Shown here: in pieces, positions 26,034 through 63,732 of the stretch
How positions within the stretch are numbered: the stretch's first letter is position 1
Layout of the letters: every line of letters starts with the position of its first letter
From: Candidatus Gastranaerophilales bacterium
GTDB taxonomy: Bacteria; Cyanobacteriota; Vampirovibrionia; Gastranaerophilales; Gastranaerophilaceae
Direction of reading: 5' to 3'
Length of the DNA: 64,000 nt
Assembly (NCBI GenBank): GCA_944324385.1
Contig: CALUWD010000002.1
Location: 1 to 64,000 of the forward strand
Notes under the pieces: model-generated
The model's input: only the letters and a program-made list of their open reading frames with translations
What the model was told of the DNA's origin: nothing
Databases searched by the model: none
Program-made: the position numbers and the translations under genes

Positions 26034-26065
26034 TAGTAAAATTGTGTATGTAGTTGGGGGTTAAA

Positions 26066-34071: not shown

Positions 34072-37000
34072 TTACTCAATTGTAAAATCAGGAGCCCCAA
34101 ACATACCTTCAATTTCTTCTAATATTGCAGAAGGTTTTCTTGCTTGGTTTTTCTGTTGAGCGCGTTTTAGTGCTTCTTTTTCTTTTTCTTCATTAGCATT
34201 GATTAAGTGGTAATAACCGGTACCCGCAGGAATTAAGCGACCAATGATAACGTTTTCTTTAAGACCGCGAAGCATATCTTTTTTGCCTTCAACAGCAGCT
34301 TCTGTCAAGATTCTTGTTGTTTCTTGGAAAGAAGCAGCAGAGATAAAGCTTTCTGTGTTCAATGAAGCTTTTGTGATACCAAGTAAAAGTGCTTCATAAG
34401 TAGCTTTTTCACCGCCTTGTTTTTCAACTTCAGCGTTTTGCGCTTCAATTTCCTTAAGTTCAACAAGTTCACCAGGAAGAAGTTTTGTTGTACCGGAGTC
34501 AACAACTCTTACCTTTTTAATCATTTGACGAACTATAACTTCAACGTGTTTATCTGCAATTTCAACGCCTTGAGAACGATATACTCTTTGTACTTCGTCT
34601 ACAAGATATTGTTGAGCAGCATTTGCACCTCTAAGTCTAATAACGTCATGTGGGTTCAAAGGACCGGAAGTTAATGCTTGACCTTTAACGATTTTTTGTT
34701 TATCCATAACAATTACGCTGGATTCAATTGGATATTTAATTTCTGTTCTACCGTTTTCATTTACAATAAACAATCTTGCAACGTCATCTTCGTATTCAAT
34801 TTCAGCTACACCGTCTTCTTCTGCAACAATAGCGCAGTCTTTTGGTTTTCTTGCTTCAAGAAGTTCTTCAACACGAGGAAGACCTTGAACGATGTCACCT
34901 GTTTTTTGTCTTTCAAATACCAAAGTTGCAAGTAAGTCACCCCTTAAAATAAGAGCTGAATTATCAACCTGCAAAAGTGTACCTGGGCTGATTAAGTGAG
35001 GACGACCTATTCTAACTGTAACAGCTTTAGGAGTAACCTCTACAACACGACCTGAGCAAGTTGAAGTTTCGCCTGAAGATGAAATTACGCTATCAAGCTT
35101 AACAAATTCGCCAACTTTCACTGTCGGTTTAGATTTAATTTCAATTTTATTTTCGTAAGTATCTGAAACAAGTAGCAATCTTCTTAATTCTTTGTCAGTT
35201 GATTTAATACTTGCAACAGAATCATTTACAGATAGAACTTGAGTTTTTGTAACAGGTGTTCTTGGTTCAATTACCTGTCCGTTTTCAACAAGAAGTTCTG
35301 TTTGAGTTGAAGATAGCATTCTTGAGCCTTCTTCTTGTTCACGACGAACAATTAAAGTTTCAAGTACAACAATTTTCAAGTTGCCTTGCTTGTCAAGTTC
35401 AACAAGACCTTTTAAGTGGCTTAAGTAGCCGCCCATTGAAAGAACTAATGATGTTCTTGTAAGAACTGCACCATCAAGGTTTCTAACTCTTGCGCCATCT
35501 TTGAATTGCAATTGAGTTAATGGAACAATTTCAATAGCATCATCAGTTGTATCAAATTTAATTGAAACATCTTTTGGTTTAATTTCAAATCTTTGGATAG
35601 GTCTTATAAGAATTTGAACTGATTTGTTTTCAATGTTGTCATCTTCAACGATGTCTTCTGTTATTTCTTCATCAAGATCATCTATTTCTAAAACATCAGA
35701 TTCATTTTCAACAATTGTAACTATTGAATCGACTTTCGCCTTGATACCTGCCGCAACAATTGTTCCAGCTTTGACAACTTCGCCTTCATCAACTTTTAAA
35801 TCGTTAATTGAATCCAGAGTATGCAATTCCCCTGGGCGAATAACAACCTCGTGAATAATATCGTTAAATTCTTTAATTTCAACAATACCGTCGATGTGGG
35901 TGTACAAGTCTTTTACAACTTCAGTACCTGCTTCAACGTATGTGCCTGATTCAACTAGTTTTAGAGATGAATCCTTTGAAATTTGATGAATTTCTTCAGG
36001 AATAAAGATTGCTTCGCCTGCTTTTGTTACAACTTGATTTTCATCAACTTCAACACCATTGTAACGAATTTCGCCAGATGATTCAACTTTGTGTTCTTCA
36101 TCAATCAATTCGGCAATAATCATGCCGTTTTCAACTGTTGTATCGATTGGACATTTAACAATATATTTTTCACCGGTTTTATCAACTGTCCAGAATTGTT
36201 CTTTTTTAGTTTGTTCAAAAGTAGCATTTGACGGTTGTAATGACGCAATAACAATTGTTAACTCTTTACCAGCAACAATTTTCTTGATTGTTTTACCATC
36301 AAATTTAACTTCTTCAACTTCAAGTGAATTTCCAACGCGAACTTCACCGCCATGTTCTGAAACAATTAAAGTTTCAGCAAGTTTTTCGCCTTTTTTAACT
36401 TTTTGACCATCTGAAACAAGAACTTTTGAACCAGCAGGAAGTGTATAAACATCGCCACCCAATACCCAAACAATACCTTGTTTGTTTGAAGTTCTTGAGA
36501 TGTTGCCTTGTCTGTCTTTCTTTTCATCTGCCACAAAGTCTTCAAAAACTACTTCACCTGAAATATCAGATGTAATATCCTTTGTAGCTTTTTCGGTCAA
36601 ACGAGAACCATCACCTTTTGAAGCTGGTTCATATTCTGCAATTTCTTGACCTTTTTTAACTTCCATACCTTGTGTAACGTATATTTTTGCACCTGATGGT
36701 ACGTGAGCTTTTGAAATATTACCTTTTTTATCTTCAATTTCAATATCGGTTTCTTTAACTGCAACTTGAACAACATCCCCATGACGAGTTCTCAATTCAC
36801 GAGTTTTAACAGCGGTTTTAACTGTACCATCAACAGGTGATTCAACGTGTTTCATTGCACCTGAACCTTTAAATACACCACCTGTGTGGAATGTTCTCAT
36901 TGTAAGCTGTGTACCGGGTTCGCCGATTGACTGAGCAGCAATAATACCAATTGCTTCGCCGATATCAACTAGTTTTTGAGTTGTCATTGCCCAACCATAA

Positions 37001-37923
37001 CATTTTTGGCAGATACCGTATTCAAGCTCACAAGTTAGAGTTGAACGTACATCAACTTCTTTTAGCTTAAGTTCTTTAATTTTTGCTAAATCTTCACGGT
37101 TAACTGTTGTATTTTTAGTAACAATAACATTACCGTCTTTATCAAGAATATCTTGTGCAACTGTTCTACCAAGCAATCTGTCTTCAAGTGGAACAATTAC
37201 TTCATCGCCATCCATAATAGCTGTTAATTTAATTGATTTATTTGTATGGCAGTCTTCTTCTCTGATAATAACGTCTTGTGCAACGTCAACCAAACGACGT
37301 GTTAGATAACCTGAGTCTGCGGTTTTAAGTGCGGTATCAACAAGACCCTTACGTGCACCGTATGAGGAGATAATGTATTCAGTAACTGACAAGCCTTCTT
37401 TAAAGTTTGATTTAATAGGCAAGTCGATAATTTGACCTTGTGCGTCTGCCATCAAACCACGCATACCAACAAGCTGTGATACCTGTGATAAGTTACCTCT
37501 CGCACCGGAGAATGCCATCATATAAACAGGGTTTAATCTATCAAAGTTCTCAACAACTTGCTCAGTTAACTTTGCAGTTGTTTCTGACCAAGTGTCAATA
37601 ACTTTTGTATATCTTTCAACTTCTGTAATTTCGCCCTTTAAATATCTGTTTGTTGATTCTTCAATCTGGTTTTGAGCTTCTTCCAACAATTGTTTCTTAA
37701 CTTTTGGAACGCTCAAATCGTGGATTGAAATTGTTGTACCTGCTTTTGTTGCATATTTAAAACCCAAGTTTTTAAGGTTGTTTGCAAGCTCAGCTGTCTT
37801 AGCACCACCCCACTCAAGATAAATTTGAGAAAGAAGTTTTCTAAGACCACCTTTATCAACAATTCTGTTAATAAATTCAACTGTATGTTTTTTCTTTTTA
37901 CTCTGTGGAGTTAATGTAGTCAT
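34072..37923 (-). CDS. rpoC2: RNA polymerase beta' subunit, C-terminal part (RpoC2)
   Basis: 1283 aa. It is the second half of the split beta' subunit. The N-terminus ([20 protein letters not shown]) begins where beta' is cut in cyanobacteria. Visible parts are the bridge-helix/trigger-loop region ([24 protein letters not shown]), the zinc-site cysteines in [13 protein letters not shown], and the trigger-loop segment [17 protein letters not shown] near residue 335. From about 345 to 950 runs a very long beta-rich insert, the position of the cyanobacterial SI3 domain, with repeated phrases such as [16 protein letters not shown]. The conserved C-terminal end with [12 protein letters not shown] and [20 protein letters not shown] follows. 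Together with RpoC1 it forms the active-site clamp. Confidence 0.95.
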
Positions 37924-37962
37924 TTTTTATTATTTCCTCATCATTTTTAAAATTACGTCTAA

Positions 37963-39675
37963 TTAAGCAAGAATTGATTTTCTAACAACTTCGTTGAACA
38001 CAATTCTACCAGGAGTTGTTTCTATTCTCTTGCCTTCATCATCTCTTACAACGATTTTGTCATGAAGCTTAACTATTCCAGATTCAAGAGCTGAAATTGC
38101 ATCCATGTAATCGTGGAAATAACCCTTAACAGGTGCATTTTCGTCTTTTAGGATAGTTAGATAATAAATACCTAGTACCATATCTTGAGATGGTGTGATA
38201 ATCGGTTTACCTGTTGCAGGAGCTAAAATGTTATTTGTAGCAAGCATTAACATTCTTGCTTCCGCTTGAGCTTCAATTGACAATGGTACGTGTACTGCCA
38301 TTTGGTCACCGTCGAAGTCAGCGTTAAACGCTGTACATACAAGCGGGTGAAGCTGAATAGCACGACCTTCTACAAGGATTGGTTCAAACGCTTGAATACC
38401 TAGTCTGTGCAAGGTAGGAGCACGGTTTAACATAACAGGGTGTCCGTCAACCACTTCTTCTAATATATCCCAAACGATGGGTTCAGAACGTTCAATTTTC
38501 TTTTTAGCTGATTTAATGTTTTGAACTAAGCCACGCTCAATTAATTTATTAACAACAAAAGGTTTAAACAATTCAATTGCCATTTCTTTAGGCAAACCGC
38601 ATTGGTTCAAGCTTAACTGAGGACCTACAACGATAACCGAACGACCTGAGTAGTCAACACGTTTACCCAATAAGTTTTGTCTGAAACGACCTTGTTTACC
38701 TTCGATAATGTTTGATAAAGATTTAAGAGGTCTTGAATTAGGCCCTACAACTGTTCTACCGCGTCTACCGTTATCAATTAAGGCATCAACCGCTTCTTGC
38801 AACATACGTTTTTCGTTACGTACGATAATTTCAGGCGCGCCCATTTCAAGAAGTCTTAAAAGTCTGTTGTTACGGTTAATTACACGTCTGTACAGGTCGT
38901 TTAAGTCTGATGTTGCAAAACGACCACCATCCAATTGAACCATAGGACGCAAATCCGGAGGAGTAATAGGAAGAACATCCATAATAAACCAAGTAGGTTC
39001 AGTTCCTGATTCAATTAAAGATTCAACAAGTCTCAATCTTTTAATTAATTTTGCTCTTTTTTGAACAGAACCACCTGCAGCGTCTAAGTCGCCTCTAATT
39101 TCATTTGCAAGTTCTTCAAGTTTTATTTCAGCCAAAAGGTCTTTTATAACCTCTGCACCGATACCCACTTTAAGTGTAGAGTCTTCATTTTCAAGAATAT
39201 AATCTTCGTATTCTTCTTCAGTTAACAATTGGAATTTTTTAAATGGGCTTTCGCCACCATCAACAACAACATAGTTGTTAAAATAGATAACCTGCTCCAA
39301 ATCTTTTAGTGTCATATCCAAAAGCAAACCAAGGTATGAAGGAATACCCTTTAAAAACCAAATGTGCGAAACAGGTGCTGCAAGCTTAATGTGCCCCATA
39401 CGGTGACGACGAACTTTAGAGTCTGTAACTTCTACACCGCAGCGTTCGCAAATGATACCTTTGTGGCGAACTCTTTTATACTTACCACAATAGCATTCCC
39501 AGTCTTTTGAAGGTCCAAAGATTCTTTCGCAAAAAAGACCATCACGCTCTGGTTTTAAGGTGCGGTAGTTAATTGTTTCTGGCTTTGTAACCTCGCCGTA
39601 TGACCATTTCAATATACGCTCGGGAGAGGCTATTGAAATTCTTATATAATCAAAATAATCAATACTAGTAGACAA
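37963..39675 (-). CDS. rpoC1: RNA polymerase beta' subunit, N-terminal part (RpoC1, gamma)
   Basis: 570 aa. It is the first half of the split beta' subunit. It holds the zinc ribbon ([20 protein letters not shown], about 60-80), the clamp, the lid and switch regions, and the catalytic [16 protein letters not shown] with three Mg2+-binding Asp near residue 452. It ends at [12 protein letters not shown], where RpoC2 takes over. It lies 34 nt after rpoB and 39 nt before rpoC2. Confidence 0.97.
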
Positions 39676-43905: not shown

Positions 43906-46900
43906 TTAACCTGCAATATGATATCTTTTCATAATATCAAGTTGTTTTTGACTATCATTCATAAGCGGCTTGTAGAAGGTTGTAACAGTATCGTTTAATA
44001 CTATTTTTTCTCCGTCAGCACGTCTTAATTCACCATCTACAACAACGTATTTTACAGGTTTTCCGTTAGAGTCTGTTTCATCAACAAATTTAGCTTTTGA
44101 TTTATCATATACTTTTCGATGAAGTTCAGCATTATTACCTTTAGCATCTTTTATTTTATATTCGATTCCATTTTTATCGGCAATTTTAACGGATGGTATA
44201 ACAACTGATTTAGGTTTTGACAACTCATAAGGAGAGCTTTCCTCTATTCCCATGTTAGATATTACCTGAATAACATTTGAACCTTTTTTGTCGTATTTAA
44301 GCATTGCAAGAAGATTCTTGGAATCCTTTTGCGGCAATATAACAGGCGTACCTTCTGACATGGCAGACATACCATATTCTTTATACAATGCACAAGATGC
44401 ATCTAACCTATCATAGTATTCTTTAATTTTTGGTATAAATTCACTTGAAGACGGGTCAACCCATTCGTGCCTTACAAGGTTTCTGTTTTGTTGAGTGATA
44501 TTTTTTGTAAGGTACTCATAACCTGTAGAACCCATATCAAAACCTGCAAAGAAGAAAGGAGTACCAGGCATAGCACAGGTAAAGTCTGTCATTTTGCTCA
44601 ACTTTTGCATTGCAGGTTCAAGAACTTTTTCCAGTACTTTTTTAGAAAGTTCTTTTTCTTCATCCTTAGTTAACCAATCAATATCTTCAAACTGCGCAAG
44701 ATATTTTGCTTGATTAAGAATATCTCTTGTTGAAACATCAAAAGAAGTTTGCCCAAAAGCTTCGGCTCTAAAGAAATCAACTTCTTCTTCGCCCATAAAT
44801 TTGCCTTGAGCCAAATCGCTTATTGCTTTATTTATAATATCAAGCTTTTGCTTGTCATCCTTTAAGATAGAAGTAAAGGCATTTTTATACATTTCACCAA
44901 TTATCATAGCTTTTGAACTTAAATTGTCATAGCTTGAAGTCGGATCGTTAGGATTTTTGCCTATTACTACTTGAGCAGCTCTTTTTGCTGTTTGAACATC
45001 ATCTTGTGTTATTTGTGAATTGTGAGTATTTATACCAAACCTTGATAAATAAGCACCCATATCAACCGCAAGACAAGAAAGTCCAAGGGGTTTATCGTGG
45101 TTATCCCAGAATTTGTGAGTAAAAAGAACACTCAGCGCAGGGCCTGATTGAATGAATTTTTCCAAGCCATCTCTTACTGAATCTAAATCAGCAAAGTAGT
45201 GTGTTTTGTTGCCTGATTCAAAGCTTTTTGAGAAGAATTGGCTTAGCATATTAAAGAATAGTGAATACTGCGAACCTGTTGTGGCACCTGTTTTTTCATC
45301 TATCATTCTTTCTGCTATATCAGGATTAATATATTTACCCCAATCCATTTCTTTGATTTCTTTAACTCTGGCTTCGATTTGTTCTTCTGTTGCATTTGGG
45401 CCAAGATCTTTTCTTGCTTCTTTGTAATATGCAGGATTACCGTTATAATAAGACCATAAGTCAGTTAACTCTAGTACAGTGTAGGCAGAAGGGTTAAATT
45501 CTCTGGCATTTTTAATAAATGTTCCCCAGAATTCCACCATATCATCAATGGCGCTTTCCATTCTTCTCATTCCATTAGAACTTGCCATTAAATCTGAAAT
45601 ATCTTTTGCAGCATCGAAACGCCAGTTTAAACCTGCGCGAGCTTGTTTAACAAATTCATTTGCAAATTTTATACCTTCATAAGAACACTTATTAATACTA
45701 GTATTTTTAAGCGCATTTGCAAATTCATATCCTGCTTGTTGTATAAATCTCTTGTCTTCTAAATTTCTAATTACATTTTTATACAAATCTTTAGCATCAG
45801 TGTTTGTATCTCCTGTAGTATAAACACCTGCTTGAGCTAAAGAAGCATTTCTTAAAGATTCTGAACTTACAATTGCACCATTTTCAGAATCAAAAGTAAT
45901 TTTTCCATTAGGATAAATCGCCTTTGTCACTGCATAATTTAAGATATTTGGCATTAATAATTTAAGGATTTCCTTGCCATATGGTGTAAGTTTTGCAAAT
46001 TTTGGATTATAATATGCGCTTTGTCTTAAATCTTTTGCATTTTCATCATCAGAATCTTGCTCGAATGTTTTTGAATTTCTTTCACTTGCTAAAATATCAA
46101 TTGAATCTTGAGAAAATTCAATAATTTTTTCGCCTGATTCATTTTGCATTTGAGCAAGAGCACCTATTATAAAATTAGCTAAAAGCTCGTTTGCTTCAGG
46201 TGATTTCATATATTCATTAAACACTGGAGTGTTTGTAACCACTTGAAGCTGTGGTGATAAATCCAATGCACCATACCTAAAATTAGTATCTTTTATTATA
46301 TCTTGCAGCGTTTCAGATGCATTTTCATCAGTCAAATTCTTTTCAATTTGAATATTTTGAGTTTCTTTGTATATTTCATCAAGTTTTTCAGGTTCTATAT
46401 CATTTTTATAAGCAATTTCTGCTATATTTTTTCTACCTTCGGCATTATTTTTTGCATATTCCATTGCTATATCTTCAACAAAAGCATTTTTAGCAAATCT
46501 TGACCACTGTATTCCTGTATCATACAAATATTGCCTTGCATCATAATAACCTTGAACATTTTCAGGTCTTGCATTAGGATTTGAAAGATTTAATTTAACA
46601 AGGTCTACACTACCTGCCCAATAATCAGCACCGCCAGCTCTGCCTTTTTCGACTATGTCATAGTTTTCAAAAGAGAAAAATGAATGCAAATTATCTATAA
46701 TTCTTGCATGGTCTTCACCATACTCTTGTATAAGCGATTTATGCCTATCGGTAAGCATTGTATTTGTGTAACCACTGAATCTGTCCCTTACACTTTTATC
46801 AGAATAATCCAATTCAAAGAAAAATGGCTGTATTGAATCTTCATGAAGTGTAATATCATAATGATCTTTTGGATTTGGTATATCGTAGCTTTTAATCAAG

Positions 46901-47994
46901 TTTTTTGTATCATTTTGCTGTTCTTTACTTGCAAGTCTGTCGTCAAAAAACTGAATATAGCTTGGTTTATTGGAATCATAACCCTTGACACCCATGGGGT
47001 TTATAATTTTAAAACCTATGTGATCCCAAGCATTTGCATGTCTAGGGTTTTCACTTGGTATATAATCAGGGAAGACACCGACTTTTATTCTGTCTCCGCT
47101 TTTAACTTTAAACCAATTGTAGTATGGAGATTTTGTGCCATTTTTCAGCACATCTTGGAAAAAGGGGCTTTGCAGACTGTGCGAAGTAAAAGCACCATCG
47201 GCAATATAACCTTTACCATCTCTAAATAATTCTGTAAGAACTTTTTTAAATTTTGCTTGAGATGGAACTCTTAGGGTATTTTCACTCCAGTATTTGTGTG
47301 AAGATTTTGTATCAGCTCCAATGTAGGGGTTTGACATAACATAGCGAAATGGAGCAAGTTTTTCGTCTTTTTTATATAAAATACCGTCAATATCACCGCC
47401 TGCTTTATTAAAATGGATTCTGTTATATTTATTTCTATCTATGCCATTACTTGTATAAGAATCATAAAAAACATGTAAAGCAGAACCTGCTTTTGGAGTA
47501 ACGCCCATTCTATTTGAAATAACCGTAAATTCACCAAATTCATTATCTTTAAATTTACTACCTGGGTCATTGTTAATATATGCTTTTGTTTCTATTTCAC
47601 CAAAAACATTGTTTTTGTTTTCAGAATCAAGATTTTTATAGGCACGTTTTGCATCTTCCTTATCTACAAGCCTAAATCTATAGCCCATGTATTCACTGAA
47701 ATTCGGGTCACTTATTACGGTATTTCTAGGGTAATCAGTTGAATTTTTTAATTTAAAATCATGGTAAGAATTGTTTATTGTAATAGGATTGCAAAAATCT
47801 TTATCGATTTTAAAACCGCCATTACCATCTTCAACTACTGGGCAAACTTCAAGTAAAATATCGTATTTTTCTCTGTCAAAAGGCGGAGCATAAAATTTAT
47901 AAACATCATCAGGGGTGCGTTCTAACCCTGTGAATGATTGATTTTTAATATTACTTATGCTTTCTTCCCTTAGATTGATTGCTGAAATTTTCAC
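43906..47994 (-). CDS. Very large GH13-like protein, active site partly unrecognisable
   Basis: 1362 aa from GTG 47994, with AAGGGT 7 nt upstream; a TTG at 48021 is also in frame. It starts MKISAINLREESISN and soon has NQSFTGLER. GH13 traits: GYIADGAFTSHSLQSPFF (region I-like), YWAGSVDLVKLNLSNP (the segment that normally precedes region II), THKFWDNHDKP (region IV Asn-His-Asp) and FAGFDMGSTGYEYLTKN near the barrel end. After SVDLVKLNLSNP the usual GxRxD nucleophile is not visible; the sequence reads GIQWSRFAKNAFVEDIAM. About 450 extra residues of helical sequence are inserted in the middle. It may be catalytically altered or a glucan-binding protein. Last gene of a four-gene operon. Confidence 0.7.
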   Translation of the reverse strand: MKISAINLREESISNIKNQSFTGLERTPDDVYKFYAPPFDREKYDILLEVCPVVEDGNGGFKIDKDFCNPITINNSYHDFKLKNSTDYPRNTVISDPNFSEYMGYRFRLVDKEDAKRAYKNLDSENKNNVFGEIETKAYINNDPGSKFKDNEFGEFTVISNRMGVTPKAGSALHVFYDSYTSNGIDRNKYNRIHFNKAGGDIDGILYKKDEKLAPFRYVMSNPYIGADTKSSHKYWSENTLRVPSQAKFKKVLTELFRDGKGYIADGAFTSHSLQSPFFQDVLKNGTKSPYYNWFKVKSGDRIKVGVFPDYIPSENPRHANAWDHIGFKIINPMGVKGYDSNKPSYIQFFDDRLASKEQQNDTKNLIKSYDIPNPKDHYDITLHEDSIQPFFFELDYSDKSVRDRFSGYTNTMLTDRHKSLIQEYGEDHARIIDNLHSFFSFENYDIVEKGRAGGADYWAGSVDLVKLNLSNPNARPENVQGYYDARQYLYDTGIQWSRFAKNAFVEDIAMEYAKNNAEGRKNIAEIAYKNDIEPEKLDEIYKETQNIQIEKNLTDENASETLQDIIKDTNFRYGALDLSPQLQVVTNTPVFNEYMKSPEANELLANFIIGALAQMQNESGEKIIEFSQDSIDILASERNSKTFEQDSDDENAKDLRQSAYYNPKFAKLTPYGKEILKLLMPNILNYAVTKAIYPNGKITFDSENGAIVSSESLRNASLAQAGVYTTGDTNTDAKDLYKNVIRNLEDKRFIQQAGYEFANALKNTSINKCSYEGIKFANEFVKQARAGLNWRFDAAKDISDLMASSNGMRRMESAIDDMVEFWGTFIKNAREFNPSAYTVLELTDLWSYYNGNPAYYKEARKDLGPNATEEQIEARVKEIKEMDWGKYINPDIAERMIDEKTGATTGSQYSLFFNMLSQFFSKSFESGNKTHYFADLDSVRDGLEKFIQSGPALSVLFTHKFWDNHDKPLGLSCLAVDMGAYLSRFGINTHNSQITQDDVQTAKRAAQVVIGKNPNDPTSSYDNLSSKAMIIGEMYKNAFTSILKDDKQKLDIINKAISDLAQGKFMGEEEVDFFRAEAFGQTSFDVSTRDILNQAKYLAQFEDIDWLTKDEEKELSKKVLEKVLEPAMQKLSKMTDFTCAMPGTPFFFAGFDMGSTGYEYLTKNITQQNRNLVRHEWVDPSSSEFIPKIKEYYDRLDASCALYKEYGMSAMSEGTPVILPQKDSKNLLAMLKYDKKGSNVIQVISNMGIEESSPYELSKPKSVVIPSVKIADKNGIEYKIKDAKGNNAELHRKVYDKSKAKFVDETDSNGKPVKYVVVDGELRRADGEKIVLNDTVTTFYKPLMNDSQKQLDIMKRYHIAG

Positions 47995-48025
47995 AATATT
48001 TACCCTTGTTATTCCCTTCAATTTT

Positions 48026-48043
48026 TATAAAACATCTGAAAAG
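48026..48043 (-). promoter_or_regulatory. Shared T-tract/ATGTTTTATA element, copy upstream of the giant GH13-like gene
   Basis: On the minus strand CTTTTCAGATGTTTTATA, ending 31 nt before the GTG at 47994. It suggests an internal promoter between the two GH13-type genes. Confidence 0.4.
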
Positions 48044-48082
48044 ATAAAATTGCCTGTTTTAAACCTATTTTTTACAGATGTT
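48031..48082. repeat. 8-bp inverted repeat in the GH13 intergenic region
   Basis: AACATCTG (48031-48038) and CAGATGTT (48075-48082), 36 nt apart, lie between the two GH13-type genes. The left arm overlaps the shared element. Confidence 0.35.
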
Positions 48083-48088
48083 ATCAGT

Positions 48089-49903
48089 TTAAGCTGCCGC
48101 CTCTTGAGGTTTTGAATTATATTCAAAATTTTGTTTCATTACATTCTCAGGTTTTGAATAGTATTCAATTTCAGGCGTATTAATTTCAAATACATGCGCT
48201 CTTAATGGCCCTAAATCAACAGTTAGAGCATTTGATGATTTTTGGAAATAGCTTGGTTGAGCGTACGATGGCAACAAATTGTTAAGCTGTTGATCAGGCT
48301 TAAACCCAGGTATTTCAATTTTTGCACTTCTTCTTAAATTTGCGTTTCTGTTACCAACAAATAAAAGTGTTTTGCCGTCCTTATGTCTTGCATAAGCTAC
48401 TATTTCAGGATTATTTGCTTCAAGTTTGATAAATGAACCATGTTCAATTAAATCTTTATATTGAGGGTCAATATTTCCGCTTCTCATATTATGTGCTGCT
48501 TTTATGAATTCTTGGATTTGAGGGAAATCGCCACCTGGTTTTCTTGAGAAGTTAAATATGTCCAATCTGCCCGTATGAACTGTACATTCATTATTGTCAG
48601 TTTGAGAATTTGGTGCTTTAGCATGGTCATAAGGATATAAATAATAGTCACCAGTTTGAACACCATCTATGTAATATGGGTTAACCATAGGGAGCGTATT
48701 TTGTAGAGCAGTTGTAAACATTACCCATGGTGCACCACCGTGAAACATTGGACTTTGGTCATCATGAGTTGTCATAGAACCAATTAAAGATTTTGGCTCA
48801 TTCATCCTGTTGGACATTTCAATATTTTCTCTCATATAGTTGAATATGTCATCTGCTTTTGTCCATTGGTTAAGTATGTGGAACTGACCATAGTAAGAGT
48901 TAAAACCACCCCTTAATTGATCTTCAGGTCTATCATATGGCATATTTAACTGCGGTGAAGCATCTTCATGGGTGTATGATTCTGCAAGCCAGCCAAATTC
49001 AGGATCAAGAGTATGAGAATAAGGAATCAATACATTCCAGAACTCAATTGGCTTAGCACGAGAAACATCGGCCCTTATACCATCAATGCCTAATTCAGTA
49101 CAAGCATCTACATATTTTTTGTGCATATCAAGAAGTTTAGGATTTAGGATTCTCTTGTCTTCATTATCCCAAACTCTGAACATTCTAATATCTTGCCAAC
49201 CTTGCGGAGTTTTATCTTGGCCATCTTTTTCTTTTGCCATTAACTCAGGATGTTTCTTTGCAAAGTCAAGGCTTGCGCAAGATGGTAAGTCTAACATAAC
49301 CGAAATACCGCGTTTGTGACACTCGTCAATAAAGATTTTAAAATGATCCCAAGCACTACCAGGGGTATTGGGGTCCTTTAAATTAGGGTCAACTGCAAGT
49401 TTACCGTCATCTTCAATAAATCTGTCAGGAGCATATAGAGAACCTGCAACGCCCATAGCTAAAGTTTTACCGGTTGGATGAATAGGCAAAATGTGCAGAG
49501 TATTTATACCCATGTCTTTAATTTCATCAAGTCTATCTATTGCGTTTATGAAATTACCTGATATTTCATTTGCCTGAATAAGCCCGTTACCGTCAACATC
49601 TTTAGCGTTCATTGTTCTTGGAACAACACCCAAAATTGTTGCTTCATTGTTCCTTAGCATATCTCTAAAATGGTTATTCCATTGAACATTTTGAACATTA
49701 GTATTATTATTTACAGCTTGAACTTTTTGGCTAGGAAGTATTTGACTTGTTTGTTTAATAATGTACTTGCTAAGCATAGGGTTATATGGCAACTCTTGCT
49801 GCGTTTGAGGCTGCTGTTGACTTTGTTCTTGAGTCTTTTTAGGAGCTGTGTTTTGAGTATAAATAATATATTTTTGTGGTATTGGTATATTATTTACTTG
49901 CAT
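48089..49903 (-). CDS. GH13 alpha-amylase-family enzyme with an EF-hand-like loop
   Basis: 604 aa. The catalytic triad is intact: region II DGIRADVSRA (nucleophile Asp), region III WLAESYTH (acid/base Glu) and region IV MTTHDDQ. Region I is MLDLPSCAS and lacks the usual Asn-His. Just before the barrel, at about residue 102, stands DVDGNGLIQANE, an almost canonical EF-hand calcium loop. The first 80 residues are Gln-rich linker (QEQSQQQPQTQQEL). No signal peptide. The C-terminal beta domain (GKTLLFVGNRNANL ...) is typical of GH13. It overlaps the upstream membrane-protein gene by 14 nt. Confidence 0.85.
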   Translation of the reverse strand: MQVNNIPIPQKYIIYTQNTAPKKTQEQSQQQPQTQQELPYNPMLSKYIIKQTSQILPSQKVQAVNNNTNVQNVQWNNHFRDMLRNNEATILGVVPRTMNAKDVDGNGLIQANEISGNFINAIDRLDEIKDMGINTLHILPIHPTGKTLAMGVAGSLYAPDRFIEDDGKLAVDPNLKDPNTPGSAWDHFKIFIDECHKRGISVMLDLPSCASLDFAKKHPELMAKEKDGQDKTPQGWQDIRMFRVWDNEDKRILNPKLLDMHKKYVDACTELGIDGIRADVSRAKPIEFWNVLIPYSHTLDPEFGWLAESYTHEDASPQLNMPYDRPEDQLRGGFNSYYGQFHILNQWTKADDIFNYMRENIEMSNRMNEPKSLIGSMTTHDDQSPMFHGGAPWVMFTTALQNTLPMVNPYYIDGVQTGDYYLYPYDHAKAPNSQTDNNECTVHTGRLDIFNFSRKPGGDFPQIQEFIKAAHNMRSGNIDPQYKDLIEHGSFIKLEANNPEIVAYARHKDGKTLLFVGNRNANLRRSAKIEIPGFKPDQQLNNLLPSYAQPSYFQKSSNALTVDLGPLRAHVFEINTPEIEYYSKPENVMKQNFEYNSKPQEAAA

Positions 49904-52364
49904 TTTTTACACCTCCATTTTCTTTTTTGTGTTTGTAGAGATGCTCATTTCTTGCCTTTCCAAACAAAAGTTGAGTAATCAATGTAACACCAATTGCAAC
50001 ACCTGTTAGAGTACCAAAGATTTTGAACCAATGTCTATCGTTATACATTTTGCTTGCAGTTTCCATAAGTAAATCAGAGCCTGCCTTACCAAGCATTGCA
50101 TATTGAGTTTTTGATAATGCGTTTGTTTTAACATCCGGAATTTCATGTCCGCGTCTTGCAAAATCTACCGTTTGAGAATAAATTGCAAAGAAATTTTCCC
50201 TTGTTTCTTGAAGTTTTTTCAAAAGTGCAGGATTGCAGCTTTCTGAAGTTGCTTGTGCAAGACTACCATATGGCCTTGAATTATTAGCAATCATATCTGT
50301 TTCTTTGAAAAGAAGTTTTATGATATTTGTTGCTTCATCACCGTTTTTATCCAAATAAAATTTGTTAGAAAGATCATTCATTGAAGAATCATACAAAATA
50401 TTTCTACAGATTTTGATTACCCTATCGCTAAGCTTATCTTGACCTGTAAGGTATTTCCAGTAATCTTGAAGTTCGCCGCTTTGCAATCTCTTTTCAAAAT
50501 CTGCTTCAAGCAAATATCTATGGCCTGTAGCTCTTATACCTGCGCCTTTTTCTTCTACAAATAAATCTATTGCTTTTTCAAATACTGTTGCGCGTTTTTT
50601 AGAAACAGGGCCAATTTCTCCTTTTAAAAATGCAAGTGGAGAATCATCAGGTATATTTCTAAATAAATTGTTAAAATCATTAGAGATTTTTTGTTTTATT
50701 TGTTTCAACAAGTTATCAACTGTAGCAGCTTCGTATTTAGACTGTTGTTCTGTTAAATCTGAAATAAATATTTTGTAATACTGCTCATCAGCAGCAATTT
50801 TTGATAAATGTTGCTCAAGAATTTTTCTTGAAGATTGCGCTGATTGTCTTGCAATTTTTAATTCTTTAGTTGGAATATGAGCAGCTTTTACAAATTCTTG
50901 GGTAGCTCTCATATGGATACCTGTGTGAACAGATTCATATTTTTGACCAACTAAACCATTTACAAAATCAGCATAGACAGAAGTACGTGCACTTATTGGT
51001 CTTACTTGAGTTTCATAAACATTTAATAAGTCTTTATAGAATTGTTTAATGGTTTCAGGACTAGCATTTTGCATTTCGACGCATTGGTTGTAAATATTTT
51101 TCAATCTTTTTATTTCATCAGGATTTTTCACACCATCAGTAATTGAGTCGAAAATATTTTCAAGTTGTTTTACACTAATTAGACCATTGCTATCTGCTTG
51201 ATTTTTAACTTTAATCAACTCTTTTAATACATTTGAAGTTAAACCTTGTGCACCAGCATTACCTTGTAAATCGCTAACGCCACCAAGATTTCTTTTTAGC
51301 AAAGGAACAATTTCATCAATTTTTAACATGCCATTTGCAGCATCTTGATTTTTCATTAATAGATATTTTTGATTAATACCATTTCTTATATCAGGTGCAA
51401 AACCTGGAACCTCAGCTATTAAGTTAGCATCATCCACATCTTTTGCGTTAATCATTACTTTAAAAGGATCAAATAAAGTTGAAATTTCATTTAGGAATTT
51501 TTCATCAGGTGCTGCAGTTCTATTTTCCAAAATTTGTTTAACTTGTTTTGAATCAACAGAATTAAAGTTTTTATCTTTAAGTTTATTGTTTACAAGTTCT
51601 GTTGGGTTATTAATACCTTTTAAAATTTTATTGTATTGAGAGTTAATAATGTATTTTGTAACTCCTCTTTCTGCCAAATTACAAATCATAGAAGTCAAAA
51701 GAGGGCTGAAACCAGCTGTTAACATCCACAATGTATTGCCCTGTAGGGCAACAGTGCGCATTTTTTCTTTTGTTAATTCGCGATAATCAGGTAATTTTTT
51801 ATCTACACCCATTTTATCTGCAATTTTATCAATTTCTTCATTTGAATATAAATCTGGGATAAATTGGTTATCAAGGAATAATCTTTTTTTGCGTCCTTGA
51901 GCATCAACGTATTGCTGACGAATATCAAAACCAAAGCGAAGTTTTAATGGTTCTGATATAAAAAGTCTTGGCCAAGCTGCCATTGAAGCAAAAAATGCGC
52001 CAGCACCAATGAATTCCATTAGACCTTTTGTGCCTGTTCCACGTTTTGTGAAAAGATAAGATGCAATGCCCAAGCTGCCCAATTTCATGCCTAAATCATT
52101 AAATCTACCAAGTTGATTGTCATTAGATTTACCTGTAGCAAGAGCCTTGCCTAGTTCTACAACATCTTTTCCTGTATCAGCAGTTGCAATAATAAAACTT
52201 GAAACAGGATTTCTGCTTTTTAAAAGGTAAGCCCTGTGTTCTTGTGGTGCAATTGAATTAGCATTTAAAACAAAAGCTTTATAAATGTCCTGTTGAGCAA
52301 TTTTATCTCTTAATTGCTTTTGATATTGACTATTTTGAATTGGCGCATTAACTTTATTATCCAT
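49890..52364 (-). CDS. Large membrane protein, unknown, with EF-hand-like loops
   Basis: 824 aa. Membrane segments are likely near residues 93-135 (LGSLGIASYLFTKRG ... FIGAGAFFASMAAWPRLFI), 205-225 (LWMLTAGFSPLLTSMICNL) and close to the C-terminus (IFGTLTGVAIGVTLITQLLFG). Between them lies about 500 residues of soluble helical sequence with phrases that resemble calcium loops: AKDVDDANLIAEV, NQDAANGMLKIDEI and NQADSNGLISVKQLE. I do not recognise the family. The start shares one base with the stop of the previous gene (TAATG) and its end overlaps the GH13 gene, so the products are probably made together. Confidence 0.65.
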   Translation of the reverse strand: MDNKVNAPIQNSQYQKQLRDKIAQQDIYKAFVLNANSIAPQEHRAYLLKSRNPVSSFIIATADTGKDVVELGKALATGKSNDNQLGRFNDLGMKLGSLGIASYLFTKRGTGTKGLMEFIGAGAFFASMAAWPRLFISEPLKLRFGFDIRQQYVDAQGRKKRLFLDNQFIPDLYSNEEIDKIADKMGVDKKLPDYRELTKEKMRTVALQGNTLWMLTAGFSPLLTSMICNLAERGVTKYIINSQYNKILKGINNPTELVNNKLKDKNFNSVDSKQVKQILENRTAAPDEKFLNEISTLFDPFKVMINAKDVDDANLIAEVPGFAPDIRNGINQKYLLMKNQDAANGMLKIDEIVPLLKRNLGGVSDLQGNAGAQGLTSNVLKELIKVKNQADSNGLISVKQLENIFDSITDGVKNPDEIKRLKNIYNQCVEMQNASPETIKQFYKDLLNVYETQVRPISARTSVYADFVNGLVGQKYESVHTGIHMRATQEFVKAAHIPTKELKIARQSAQSSRKILEQHLSKIAADEQYYKIFISDLTEQQSKYEAATVDNLLKQIKQKISNDFNNLFRNIPDDSPLAFLKGEIGPVSKKRATVFEKAIDLFVEEKGAGIRATGHRYLLEADFEKRLQSGELQDYWKYLTGQDKLSDRVIKICRNILYDSSMNDLSNKFYLDKNGDEATNIIKLLFKETDMIANNSRPYGSLAQATSESCNPALLKKLQETRENFFAIYSQTVDFARRGHEIPDVKTNALSKTQYAMLGKAGSDLLMETASKMYNDRHWFKIFGTLTGVAIGVTLITQLLFGKARNEHLYKHKKENGGVKNASK

Positions 52365-53398
52365 TATTGCACCTCATATTCTTTATTAAGATCAATTTGT
52401 GTGTCAGGTTGATTTTTTGCAATTTTAAATCCGCGTGTAGCATTATATATACCTAAAATTGTAGAAGCAGCAGCGCCGAAAATAAGTGTTCTGCCCACTA
52501 TTTTCGAAGCAGTAGTAAATTTCTTGTTATTTCCGTTGTATAAATCTAAAAAGCTATCTTTTAAGGTAGTTGCAAAATTTCTGCCAAAACCTTGGAGTTT
52601 CTGAGCTGTAGTACCTGAAACAGGCATTTTAATTTTCTTTTCAAAAGGTTCTTGAGCAGCAAGTGCAACACCTAATGCTGCCCAAGCAAAAGAGCTTATA
52701 GGCCTTGCAGCACCAAGTTTTGTATTAACTTCTCTTACTTTATCTTGAACCATTTGTTCAGGACAATTTAGAGGGTCTTTGAAGCCCATTTTTCTAGCTA
52801 TTTTATCCCACCAAAGGTTTCTGTTTCCTTTCTTTTCGCCCATTTTATTTAATAGGTCAAAACGAGGAAAATCAACACTTTCAAATACTCTATGATATTC
52901 AATTCTTGTTAAAGCCTTATCACCAGTATTTTCAGGAAGCTCTGTGACAAATTTTTTATAAGGCATTTCAGGATCAATACCAGTTTTCAAATGAACACCT
53001 TTATTTAAAAATTTTGCACCAAGCCATTTACCTAGAGCATAAAAAACAACACCAAAAGCCATTTTTCTGCCAGGGATAGCGGCAAACGCCCTGTCAGGCA
53101 TTTTAAAACCTTTATTTGCAGCATTAAACAAAGCTATCAGCATAGCAGAGCCAACAATATTTGGTATCAAACCTAAAGATAAAAATTCATAGAAATTAGA
53201 GTTTCTTGAACCTTTCATACCCTTTGGCGCGTAGACAAAAACATCATTTACAAGCTTACTCAAAGTTATTCTGGCACCGGTTAAAGGAGTCTTTTTAATA
53301 ATTGTATCAGAGGTATTTGAAAGCTCCTTTTCCGGTTTAGCTTGAACGTAGTATGCGTTCTTTGGTATATTTTCCGTTTTTACCTGTCCTGTTTGCAC
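52364..53398 (-). CDS. Membrane protein, unknown, first gene of the GH13 operon
   Basis: 344 aa, GTG start at 53398. Probable membrane segments: LIPNIVGSAMLIALFNAA (about 72), AFGVVFYALGKWLGA (about 107), SSFAWAALGVALAA (about 233) and TLIFGAAASTILGIY (about 305). The soluble part between the second and third contains WWDKIARKMGFKDPLNCPEQ. I do not recognise it. The Shine-Dalgarno GGAG is 13 nt from the GTG but only 4 nt from an in-frame ATT that would extend the protein to read INKVQTGQV, so the start is uncertain. The shared upstream element lies 42 nt before the GTG. Confidence 0.65.
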   Translation of the reverse strand: MQTGQVKTENIPKNAYYVQAKPEKELSNTSDTIIKKTPLTGARITLSKLVNDVFVYAPKGMKGSRNSNFYEFLSLGLIPNIVGSAMLIALFNAANKGFKMPDRAFAAIPGRKMAFGVVFYALGKWLGAKFLNKGVHLKTGIDPEMPYKKFVTELPENTGDKALTRIEYHRVFESVDFPRFDLLNKMGEKKGNRNLWWDKIARKMGFKDPLNCPEQMVQDKVREVNTKLGAARPISSFAWAALGVALAAQEPFEKKIKMPVSGTTAQKLQGFGRNFATTLKDSFLDLYNGNNKKFTTASKIVGRTLIFGAAASTILGIYNATRGFKIAKNQPDTQIDLNKEYEVQ

Positions 53399-53440
53399 CT
53401 TGTTAATAACACTCCAAAAAAATTAACACACACATATTTT

Positions 53441-53460
53441 CTAAAAAGCATGAATAAAAA
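53441..53460 (-). promoter_or_regulatory. Shared T-tract/ATGTTTTATA element, copy upstream of the GH13 operon
   Basis: On the minus strand TTTTTATTCATGCTTTTTAG, ending 42 nt before the GTG at 53398. The match is weaker (CTTTTTAG in place of TTTTATA). Confidence 0.35.
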
Positions 53461-53558
53461 TTTTTGTTAGTTAATTTAAAAAACTTTACATTCATTAACA
53501 AATATTTTTATTACACCAACAACATTACTAAAATGTAGATAAATCCTTAAAAATTATG

Positions 53559-53564
53559 TAAAAT
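53559..53564 (+). promoter_or_regulatory. -10 box of the STAND-like gene (leaderless type)
   Basis: TAAAAT ends 6 nt before the ATG at 53571. The -35 is weak (TAGATA, 17 nt upstream). No Shine-Dalgarno. Confidence 0.4.
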
Positions 53565-53570
53565 AATTAT

Positions 53571-60149: not shown

Positions 60150-62270
60150 TTAAGCTGATTTTTCGTTGATGGTAATTGCATCAGCAAAATAATCAACAAT
60201 ACTTGGGTCAACTTTTTCAGCCCGTTCAGTTGCCATTACTTGACCTTTAATATCGTATTTACTTTCAACTTTATCTTTTAATTCAGAAGATGTTGCAACA
60301 AGACCTGTTTTTGTATTAACACACTTAAGAACATTAGCTCTTTCAAAGTCTTCTAATTTAAAGTCACCAGAAGCAATCTGCATTGTAGTATGGTAAAGTT
60401 GGTTCAAACTACCACAATCTGCCCAAGGCTCATCTGTAGGAACAGCTAAAATCTTTTGGTCCCCTAAGAATTTTTTTGCAAACATAATTTTATCCATTGG
60501 GATACTTCCTTCATTGGCATTAACTAAAGATGCAATCTCTTTTCTTATCACAAATAAGTCGTCATTTTGTGTAAGTGACATTAAGATGGGTGTTAAACAT
60601 TTTGACCAGTCTCTTGGTTCTTTACCCTTACCTGCAGGAAAATATGGGGAAAGAATTTCAAGCGCCTTAAATGCTTCCTTGCTTACTGCAAATTGGAATG
60701 TATTTGCCATACATTTACCTTCCTGCGAAATAAGATCTTTGGAAGGATTTTTTGGTTTTTCAACAAACTGCAGTATTTCATTGTTGGCGCCAAGTTTCAT
60801 TATACCAAAATCTTTTGCCAAGGATGGGTCAACTTCTTTTGCTATCATGACCATAGCAGCTTCACCAGAATCAATAAGTTCTTTTGCCTTAACCATAGCA
60901 TTAGTAACTCTAGAAATTGGATCGTTTGGTAAAATTAATAAATTTTCTCTGCCGGCACGTTTCATTTTATTGTACATATCAATTGTAAAACCGCCATTAC
61001 CTTTATTAACACCTGACTTATTCAAATAAAATTTAACATTTTTACCTACACCAAATACACCTTTTGAACAGTCAAGAAGACCTGCATTATGAAGCGTGAT
61101 AAATGTAGTTTCCATAGGTGTTAAACCAGTAGGAGTTCTAAATACACCTTTAGTAGATTGTGCGCCATGTTCCAGTTTTCCCTTGTCTTTACCATGAAAG
61201 ATACCATCAGAAGAAGCATTTGTGTACTCAGCACGAGAACCAAATCCACCAGCAAGCATGGCAATCTGTGTTTTATCTGCATCCGGAGCTGCAACAAATG
61301 TATCAAGAACTATTTTACCGCTGTTAATTTTTTCTTCGAATTCGACAATACTTTGAATAATTTCAGGAACAAAACGTCCGTTTTCCATACCGATTACAAT
61401 TTCAGTACCCTTTCCAATAGAAGGTTCAGGATGCCTTTCGCGCACTACTTGCGCTGGAGCTTCAAAAGGCACAAATACATTATCACCTTTCCTTGCATTA
61501 ACAACTAATGTACCTTCAAGGGTGTCCTTTTTACTTATCTTACCAGTGTCTGTCATAAGAATAAATCTGTCTATAGGGTTGGAAGAAGAGTTGTCTTCAA
61601 CTACAGACATTAAATTGCCCTTGGTATTTAACACATAAACAAGCTCTTTCATAGGTTCTGGCATTTTTGAATCAGGCGTAAGCAGTACTCTTATATTTTG
61701 TTTTAGTGGTAAAGATATATCAGCACGCATTTTTCTCGCAGATTTTGGTTGACGAACAGCCATTTCATACAAGAAATCTTCTCCTGCATTTTTAACTTGA
61801 GTTCTTGCTATAGTTTCATACGGCACAGTTTTTTCATACTTATAATATCTTCCTGTGGAACTAAATTGCTCTTCATATTGTTCTTTTCTATCTTCTTTTG
61901 AAACTACAATATTTGTTTTTACAGCATCTTCGTATTTAGGCAAAGAATCATGTAATTCTTCGATAATTTCAGAAACATTTGCTCTACTTCCTACCATTTC
62001 ACCCTTTATGCCTGCAGCAGGATCATCACAAGTTACAACTTCCATGTTAAATTTATCAAATACTTCGTTTAACGAAATGCCTCCGGCAAAATTAACAGTT
62101 TTTGCAGTTTTTATACCATTAAGTGCTTGATATGCACTTGCTAATTTTGAAGCTTGAGTTTTTGAACCTTCAAAACTAACATTTTGACTTTTAGCAGGCG
62201 TTGTTGCACTATTTGATTTAACTGCCTGGTTTTTAACGCTTACAGGACTTAAAGTTACTTTTTGTATCAT
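60150..62270 (-). CDS. Sugar-nucleotidyltransferase-like protein with a long N-terminal extension
   Basis: 706 aa. From about residue 335 it matches the NTP-transferase fold of glucose-1-phosphate adenylyltransferase and mannose-1-phosphate guanylyltransferase: IAMLAGGFGSR, a long insert, then PTGLTPMETTFITLHNAGLL, LLILPNDPISRV, FGIMKLGANNEILQFVEKP and WADCGSLNQLYHTT. The signature is altered, since GGFGSR is followed by a 30-residue insert before the Lys-Pro segment. The first 330 residues are unknown and carry QNVSFEGSK and TVNFAGGIS. It may charge glucose 1-phosphate for glucan synthesis, but the nucleotide and sugar are unknown. Good Shine-Dalgarno (AAAGGAAG). Confidence 0.75.
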   Translation of the reverse strand: MIQKVTLSPVSVKNQAVKSNSATTPAKSQNVSFEGSKTQASKLASAYQALNGIKTAKTVNFAGGISLNEVFDKFNMEVVTCDDPAAGIKGEMVGSRANVSEIIEELHDSLPKYEDAVKTNIVVSKEDRKEQYEEQFSSTGRYYKYEKTVPYETIARTQVKNAGEDFLYEMAVRQPKSARKMRADISLPLKQNIRVLLTPDSKMPEPMKELVYVLNTKGNLMSVVEDNSSSNPIDRFILMTDTGKISKKDTLEGTLVVNARKGDNVFVPFEAPAQVVRERHPEPSIGKGTEIVIGMENGRFVPEIIQSIVEFEEKINSGKIVLDTFVAAPDADKTQIAMLAGGFGSRAEYTNASSDGIFHGKDKGKLEHGAQSTKGVFRTPTGLTPMETTFITLHNAGLLDCSKGVFGVGKNVKFYLNKSGVNKGNGGFTIDMYNKMKRAGRENLLILPNDPISRVTNAMVKAKELIDSGEAAMVMIAKEVDPSLAKDFGIMKLGANNEILQFVEKPKNPSKDLISQEGKCMANTFQFAVSKEAFKALEILSPYFPAGKGKEPRDWSKCLTPILMSLTQNDDLFVIRKEIASLVNANEGSIPMDKIMFAKKFLGDQKILAVPTDEPWADCGSLNQLYHTTMQIASGDFKLEDFERANVLKCVNTKTGLVATSSELKDKVESKYDIKGQVMATERAEKVDPSIVDYFADAITINEKSA

Positions 62271-62381: not shown

Positions 62382-63053
62382 TTATTTAACAACACCTAAA
62401 TCAAGGACTTCTTTAAGTTTATTTTTTATAGCATTATGAATTTCATCCTTGCTTTTTGTCCCATCAAGCTCTATAAAGCCATATTCTTTTTCAAGTTTTT
62501 TGTACTCATCAAGACATCTTTTTTGATATATTTCAAAACTTTTGTAAATATCTGTTGAAAGACCTATGTCACGACCTGATTCAAAATAATCAAGTCCGCC
62601 TGATGCTATAAGTCTTTTTATCAACAAATCAGGAGGCATTTTTAAATAAAATACCAAATCAGGCTCAGGAGCAAATTCATAGAGCTTTTTAACCCAATTT
62701 ATATCATGACCTCGAACTGAATCACGCACATAAGCTGTATAAACGTATCTATCCAAAAGTACGACAAAACCTGACTTAAGCGCAGGAATTATTACATTTT
62801 CCAATCTGTCAGCGTAATCTGCCGCATATAAAAGCGAAAAAGTCGTAGTATTAAGCAAATTTTTCTCTTTAGCTTCGTTAATAAGTCCTGAAATAAGTCT
62901 GGAGGTTTTCCACTCAGACACAACACACCCGTAGCTTAAGCCCTCTACAAAGCCTTTTAACATATTAACTTGAGTTGATTTACCCGCACCGTCAGTGCCT
63001 TCTATTACAACCAAAAGCCCGTCATAGCCGTGTTTTTTATATGCCATTTTCAT
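62382..63053 (-). CDS. Thymidylate-kinase-like protein, copy B
   Basis: 223 aa. P-loop GTDGAGKST (about residue 19), the DR motif in VVLLDRYVYTAYVRDSVRG (about 98) and a lid-like segment fit the thymidylate kinase superfamily, which phosphorylates dTMP. The DR segment is longer and different from classical Tmk (DRY/F-x-x-S-x-x-A-Y). It is a paralog of the gene immediately upstream: both have SLL(Y/H)A-x-D-(Y/F)-ADRLE and IIPALK-x-GF. It overlaps copy A by 17 nt. Confidence 0.8.
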   Translation of the reverse strand: MKMAYKKHGYDGLLVVIEGTDGAGKSTQVNMLKGFVEGLSYGCVVSEWKTSRLISGLINEAKEKNLLNTTTFSLLYAADYADRLENVIIPALKSGFVVLLDRYVYTAYVRDSVRGHDINWVKKLYEFAPEPDLVFYLKMPPDLLIKRLIASGGLDYFESGRDIGLSTDIYKSFEIYQKRCLDEYKKLEKEYGFIELDGTKSKDEIHNAIKNKLKEVLDLGVVK

Positions 63054-63732
63054 CCTCTTTAATTTCTATGCCGCGCTTTTTAAGCACTTCAGTTACCAGT
63101 TTTCTAAAGTACTGTTGTTTTTGATGAATTGTATCATTTGCATCAATCTGCACAAGAGAATACTCATCAACCATATTTTTATACTGCTCAATAACCCTGT
63201 TTTGAAAAATTACATAGCTTTTATAGGGGTTATTGGATAATTTTAAATCCATGCCTGCCTCATAAAACTTTGGCTGGCGATTTGTACAAATTCTATCCAA
63301 AGAAACTTTTGCGCTTACATCAAAATACACGCTCAAGTCAGGTTTAATTGCAAAACCATACATATTTCTAACCCACTTAGGATCAACCTCTCGAGCAACA
63401 TCACGAGCAAAAGCAGTATATACGTATCTGTCTGCAAGTACTATAAAACCTGCTTTAAGAGCAGGAATGATTGTACGCTCAAGCCTGTCTGCAAAATCTA
63501 CCGCATGTAAAAGCGAAAAAGTCCTGCCTGAGAGGAGATTTTTCTTTTTTGCACGCTTTGTCGTTTGAGAAATAAGCTCTGAAGAATTCCATTGCGTTAA
63601 AATAACATCAAGATTTTTTGACTTTAGCCAACTGTATAGTAAGTCAAGCTGGGTACTTTTACCCGAACCGTCAATGCCTTCAACGCAAATCAACACACCT
63701 TGCAGTTTATGGTCTTTTGAAAATCTTAACAT
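63037..63732 (-). CDS. Thymidylate-kinase-like protein, copy A
   Basis: 231 aa. P-loop GIDGSGKST (about residue 19), FVDFADRLERTIIPALKAGF-like segment near 75-95 (VDFADRLERTIIPALKAGF) and DRYVYTAFARDVAREVD near 98. It aligns with copy B over nearly the whole length, so the pair arose by tandem duplication and has diverged widely. One copy may be the cell's dTMP kinase and the other may have a changed substrate, or the two may form a heterodimer. An upstream ATGTTTTA resembles part of the shared element, too weakly to call. Confidence 0.8.
   Translation of the reverse strand: MLRFSKDHKLQGVLICVEGIDGSGKSTQLDLLYSWLKSKNLDVILTQWNSSELISQTTKRAKKKNLLSGRTFSLLHAVDFADRLERTIIPALKAGFIVLADRYVYTAFARDVAREVDPKWVRNMYGFAIKPDLSVYFDVSAKVSLDRICTNRQPKFYEAGMDLKLSNNPYKSYVIFQNRVIEQYKNMVDEYSLVQIDANDTIHQKQQYFRKLVTEVLKKRGIEIKEDENGI

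Follow-up and report, generated by a model that had tools for sequence, protein, structure and literature searches.

The locus described here raises the question of why two large membrane proteins that match no catalogued family should be encoded together with two GH13-type proteins, and whether the products form a unit at the membrane. It lies in a window of 64,000 nucleotides, the whole stretch of DNA that was analysed, from a Candidatus Gastranaerophilales genome of 1.69 Mb (G000). A first-pass annotation of this window had proposed a membrane-bound glucan-handling complex, and had tied the operon to other glucan genes through a shared upstream element. Annotation leaves three of the four proteins without a family assignment, and the other, GH604, with weak GH13 matches only.

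Organization of the operon

The four genes and the region that precedes them are the following.

M344: 52364-53398, minus strand; ORF with a GTG start for a 344-residue polytopic membrane protein, assigned from hydropathy, the model and homology with M824.
M824: 49890-52364, minus strand; ORF for an 824-residue membrane protein, predicted to combine the membrane plan of M344 with a helical domain of about 530 residues before the last membrane helix.
GH604: 48089-49903, minus strand; ORF for a 604-residue GH13 enzyme without a signal peptide, with the triad D279, E308 and D381.
GH1371: 43906-48021, minus strand; giant GH13 protein, the likely start being a GTG at 47994, with the triad D803, E851 and D976.
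Operon upstream region (leader/promoter): 53399-53570, minus strand; between the operon and a divergent AAA-TPR gene, defined by within-genus alignment.

All four genes lie on the minus strand, and the ORF coordinates reproduce the overlaps of 1 nt (M344 and M824) and 14 nt (M824 and GH604) given in the first-pass annotation. GH604 is separated from GH1371 by 67 nt if the longest ORF is taken, or by about 94 nt if the GTG at 47994 serves as its start codon, as the alignment with several orthologues that have this start suggests. That both GH13 proteins are without signal peptides, as had been claimed, is borne out by the sequences: GH604 lacks hydrophobic segments altogether, and the N-terminus of GH1371 is free of them as well. 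The operon is placed upstream of rpoB on the same minus strand, with one convergent small gene in between. Elsewhere in the window (34072-39675) the beta' subunit of RNA polymerase is divided between two genes, a 570-residue rpoC1-like protein and a 1283-residue ORF at the rpoC2 place, named by position; this arrangement is Cyanobacteria-like.

An alignment of 11 orthologous upstream regions revealed about 170 nt that are conserved among congeners. The suggestion that this element is common to other glucan genes was not sustained. BLASTN-short searches, the 11-sequence alignment and PWM scans identified no second copy of it in the window or in the examined loci, and no counterpart of the region was found in front of other glucan genes. 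The sole near-repeat is a 17-mer, located upstream of a GlgB/TreZ-like gene (26015) and of a GlgC-like gene (62350), but not of M344. A scan for promoters and terminators gave counts equal to those from shuffled sequences.

The GH604 enzyme

Pfam and NCBIfam searches with GH604 gave weak GH13 traces only. The profile search against the PDB was more informative, with 131 matches at E <= 0.001, the best 60 of the 131 all being GH13-type enzymes by name. The nearest entries are 4gkl (E value of 4e-28), 1gju (5e-25), the bacterial alpha-amylase 3dhu (9e-20) and GlgE (3e-17). The catalytic Asp, Glu and Asp are present in CSR-II, CSR-III and CSR-IV respectively, with an Arg two residues before the nucleophile and a His preceding the last Asp, the pattern by which GH13 proteins were recognized. 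Residues R277, D279 (nucleophile), E308 (acid/base), H380 and D381 (stabiliser) are invariant in 15 GH604 sequences, secreted paralogues included.

The best match, T. neapolitana AmyB (4gkl), is a maltogenic amylase of subfamily GH13_48 and could be aligned with GH604 through CSR-VI, CSR-I, CSR-V and CSR-II. In members of GH13_48, CSR-I ends in N-H, CSR-IV in N-H-D and CSR-VII in GQ (PMC11239784). In GH604 the corresponding sequences are D-L/I-P-S-C instead of the usual D-x-x-x-N-H, T-H-D with no N-H-D, and N-P-Y-[FY]-x-x-G-x-x-[TS]-G-D with no GQ. GH604 was therefore not placed in GH13_48, since it departs from three published hallmarks, and it differs from AmyB also in having membrane partners. 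Directly before the nucleophile a Cys is found in 81% of cases over GH13_48 and GH13_49 together, and otherwise mainly A, V or L (PMC11239784); the Ala of GH604 at this position (R-A-D) is a permitted minority residue by the same criteria. On these sequence features GH604 appears to represent a branch of GH13 outside the classified subfamilies.

The second-best match is the T. maritima maltodextrin glycosyltransferase/maltosyltransferase (1gju), for which the similarity includes an N-terminal 'viYalvpRtfnA' stretch together with CSR-I and CSR-II. This is a soluble enzyme of 637 residues, and the likeness was seen at the level of profiles. The match with GlgE (maltose-1-phosphate maltosyltransferase, GH13_3; 3zss and others) covers CSR-I to CSR-III, and the two proteins are similar in K-P-x-x-F-W after CSR-II and F-L-A-E in CSR-III. 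The residue after the nucleophile distinguishes them, being Asn in GlgE (R-V-D-N) whereas GH604 carries an invariant Val (R-A-D-V, V280). We know of no membrane partner for GlgE.

GH1371 and the glucan-metabolism setting

In GH1371 the residues R801, D803, E851 and N974-H975-D976, which conform to the GH13 motifs, are invariant among 11 sequences, and the Asp of CSR-I (D275) is also retained. The first-pass assignment of two GH13 proteins is thus upheld by PDB profile matches and by invariant catalytic residues. PF00128 is matched by two of the 11 members; the protein encoded in the window gave no Pfam or NCBIfam match. The best PDB matches belong to the neopullulanase/cyclomaltodextrinase/maltogenic amylase group (2wc7, 1sma and 1ea9), with 2wc7 at an E value of 4e-16 around CSR-I. 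From this group GH1371 is set off by its length, about 1,370 residues, and by two long inserts: CSR-I is separated from CSR-II by some 525 residues, and the other insert follows CSR-IV.

The source genome also encodes a GlgA that scores above a family cut-off, a pair of GlgX-like debranching enzymes, a partial phosphorylase match and a GH13 protein of TreS-like type that apparently has a signal peptide; a GlgB/TreZ-like enzyme is present in the window at 26054-28552. Published reconstructions for Gastranaerophilales mention starch and glycogen among the compounds used (PMC3787301, PMC4040986).

Some further observations concern neighbouring proteins. The 706-residue product of 60150-62270 has a GlgC-like nucleotidyltransferase stretch in its C-terminal half only (a weak match of 35.8 bits), and its N-terminal 430 or so residues are without assignment. 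The adjacent and overlapping genes at 62382-63053 and 63037-63732 both encode P-loop thymidylate-kinase-like N-termini and probably represent a tandem duplication. An N-terminal [ST]FxG sequence, which occurs in GH1371, in some GH604 orthologues and in the GlgC-like protein, was considered as a docking signal for glucan enzymes and rejected, because it recurs in unrelated hypothetical proteins and is not specific. More broadly, a motif approximating [STN]F[KTSER]G is found within the first 10-60 residues of otherwise unrelated proteins that have no signal peptide, and is possibly a sorting or docking tag. Its carriers include, in the window, GH1371 (43906-48021), the GlgC-like protein (60150-62270) and the product of 29736-30731, and in other loci L125:12621-14648, L134:7126-8076 and L120:7904-8719.

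The membrane proteins M344 and M824

The description of M344 and M824 as two membrane proteins of no known family is confirmed by their hydrophobic segments and helical models, and by the absence of a Pfam or NCBIfam match for either. No PDB fold was retrieved with the models of M344 and M824 at E <= 0.001, a search of PHROGs gave no matches and M824 was not found in a plasmid search. The two proteins are homologous to each other (hhalign probability 94.8%, E value of 5e-8), the homology of M344 being with the membrane part of M824.

AlphaFold2 models of the single chains, built from 77-78 sequences, have pLDDT values of 80.8 for M344 and 82.0 for M824. A similar plan is predicted for both: a pair of long helices is followed by a small beta-hairpin and then by a third helix, and the chain closes with a C-terminal helix; in the model of M824 the additional helical domain is inserted between the third and the last helix. 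Flank charges, assessed by positive-inside analysis, indicated no decisive side of the membrane for the domains. Invariant acidic residues occur at or in the predicted membrane helices, D82 and E117 in M824 and E71 in M344, and hint at a role beyond passive anchoring. We consider that M344 and M824 are probably partners in one complex.

Conservation of gene order and co-occurrence

A scan of the GTDB collection yielded at least 80 loci, and the 80 listed form the basis of the counts of gene order. Their titles nearly all name Gastranaerophilales, Melainabacteria, Cyanobacteria or a generic bacterium. M824 is directly upstream of GH604 in all 80 listed Gastranaerophilales loci, and M344 is directly upstream of M824 in each of the 76 with a contig that reaches far enough. 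Most of the intergenic gaps within the trio fall between -20 and +3 nt. Two of the contigs with the Gastranaerophilales trio, L060 and L069, are labelled Fusobacterium sp.; on the tree L060 groups within the Gastranaerophilales, so that its label looks wrong.

The position of GH1371 is more variable. In all 12 same-genus genomes from the first search the four families have coordinates compatible with one cluster. Direct reading of ten of these genomes (L009-L018) gave the four-gene order each time, so that it is not a matter of chance. Over the 80 listed loci GH1371 is the downstream neighbour of the trio in 15. In the other families of the order the trio is found together wherever the contig permits, with GH1371 adjoining it in f5 and f7 and on a separate contig in f3, f4 and f6. 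In f7 the gene after GH1371, in the same orientation, is a GH13 gene of the GlgB/TreZ type, whose product NCBIfam puts between TreZ and GlgB, under both cut-offs. The order M344-M824-GH604 is also present in all 12 loci read from 11 genomes of f9 and f15, mostly with short overlaps where the genes are unfused. The core is a three-gene module, M344-M824-GH604, and the four-gene unit is lineage-restricted. A lack of conserved order, which the first-pass annotation had named as a refutation, is the opposite of what was seen for the trio in loci across the class; GH1371 adjoins it in some lineages only.

Presence and absence follow the same pattern. Among 289 genomes sampled from the class, M344 was found in 204, GH604-type proteins in 206 (E <= 1e-30) and GH1371-type proteins in 200, the last mostly elsewhere in the genome than the trio. 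The distribution of M344 coincides with that of GH604 (204 of 289), with one ambiguous case, in co-occurrence counts that are inflated by shared ancestry. The ambiguous genome (G280) has M344 and a single GH604 relative on another contig. The two additional genomes with GH604-type proteins, G273 and G301, are without M344 and have one GH604 relative each, where nearly all others in their family have two or more. Outside Gastranaerophilales, M344 and GH604 occur in exactly the same 13 genomes (f9 and f15), and none of the families examined has M344 without GH604. A second GH604-type copy is present in most members of the family; the paralogue in the window's genus (L025:6394-7944, G000:C23) has an apparent signal peptide and neither M344 nor M824 alongside. 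The trio is close to universal in the Gastranaerophilales, a major order of mostly uncultured gut bacteria.

A natural fusion of M824 and GH13

One family includes three genomes in which a single uninterrupted ORF, with no internal stop, encodes both M824 and the GH13 enzyme. The fused ORFs comprise 1030 residues in L140 (G022), 1082 in L141 (G034) and 986 in L142 (G046), and that of L140 is situated on a single 2.2-Mb contig. The membrane part comes first and the GH13 part follows the last membrane helix, and the catalytic triad is readable in the fused copies. These copies constitute one clade on a tree of the GH13 parts (SH-aLRT 98), which is compatible with a single fusion event. At the level of sequence the enzyme and the membrane protein are thereby linked in the orthologues L140, L141 and L142 only. 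Of the evidence from sequence alone, we regard this natural fusion as the strongest indication that M824 may work in contact with GH604.

A probable membrane-bound glucan-processing unit

The explanation that we favour, and judge to be probable, is that M344, M824 and GH604 make up a single membrane-bound unit, in which an active GH13 enzyme that processes alpha-glucan is kept tethered to the cytoplasmic membrane. This draws on the conserved order, the co-occurrence, the M824-GH13 single ORFs, the homology and helical models of M344 and M824, and the invariant triads. The two homologous polytopic subunits would form the unit and hold GH604 at the membrane. The enzyme would sit on the C-terminal side of M824, encoded by the adjacent, tightly coupled gene in most species and fused covalently to M824 in some. 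GH604 would cleave or transfer short alpha-1,4-glucan units, presumably at the cytoplasmic face, and would most likely be a maltogenic amylase or a maltosyl/4-alpha-glucanotransferase. The alpha-glucan assignment is suggested also by the nearest structures (maltogenic amylase, maltosyltransferase and GlgE) and by the GlgB/TreZ-like gene that joins the operon in f7. GH1371 would be another GH13 enzyme of this glucan metabolism, greatly enlarged and part of the operon only in some lineages.

The components of this explanation differ in strength. The tether of GH604 to the membrane appears well supported by fusion, order and co-occurrence. Gene order, co-occurrence, fusion, intact catalytic residues and the homology of M344 with M824 can be read from the sequences; we infer a physical complex in the unfused species, that of the window included, as well as the activity, reaction type and substrate of GH604. 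A location on the cytoplasmic or inner face is plausible, given that GH604 has no signal peptide. On the other side, the fusion represents one evolutionary event in one family, and GH1371 is mostly encoded elsewhere in the genome. The complex envisaged in the first-pass annotation can thus be retained for M344, M824 and GH604; its extension to all four products applies to particular lineages. No paper describing an M344-M824-GH604 system was found in the literature.

Operons often mix loosely related genes, and GH604, with neither a membrane segment nor a signal peptide, might be a soluble enzyme of storage-glucan metabolism that is merely co-transcribed with functionally unrelated membrane proteins. 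A near-invariant order with tight coupling across the class, the joint absence of the genes and the single-ORF fusions are hard to reconcile with this proposal, and the fusions in particular make simple co-transcription improbable. The association of a GH13 fold with a polytopic membrane partner also recalls the heavy chains rBAT and 4F2hc, in which a GH13-like domain that has lost its catalytic site is placed behind an N-terminal membrane anchor. GH604 would then be a non-catalytic subunit of a membrane transporter, for which its unusual CSR-I (D-L-P-S-C, no N-H) might be adduced. However, all 15 aligned members have the triad and the Arg of CSR-II unchanged, and the triad can also be read in the fusions. 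Unlike a heavy chain, GH604 has no membrane segment and the fused GH13 domain follows a polytopic membrane domain; we find this explanation very hard to credit.

Another possibility is that M344 and M824 transport a glucan, or a glycan on a lipid carrier, through the membrane, with GH604 trimming or extending the glucan en route, in a system for export or envelope polysaccharide and not for storage. In at least 31 of 76 loci (e.g. L048:5478-6320) the gene immediately preceding M344, and co-oriented with it, encodes UppP (undecaprenyl-diphosphate phosphatase), and charged residues are conserved in the membrane helices of M344 and M824. However, UppP is not at that place in the window's genus nor in the f9 and f15 loci, the gaps of 58-180 nt after it leave room for a separate promoter, and no polymerase, flippase or exporter family and no fold match was recognized. 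We consider export unlikely, but worth testing, since for the Mycobacterium capsule the route by which intracellular alpha-glucan leaves the cell is treated as an open question (PMC11046441).

Implications

A more speculative extension, which we view as doubtful, is that M344 and M824 represent membrane machinery of a new type, linking a cytoplasmic GH13 transglycosylase with the assembly or export of alpha-glucan or, as the UppP neighbour suggests, of an undecaprenyl-carried glucan. If true, such a glucan assembly/export machine would be a conserved feature of the Gastranaerophilales and of certain other Vampirovibrionia, non-photosynthetic relatives of the Cyanobacteria. The fused versions provide a direct handle for testing. 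Storage-glucan enzymes are usually thought to be soluble; the conserved and sometimes covalent link between a GH13 enzyme and a polytopic membrane protein suggests that in these bacteria glucan may be handled at the membrane.
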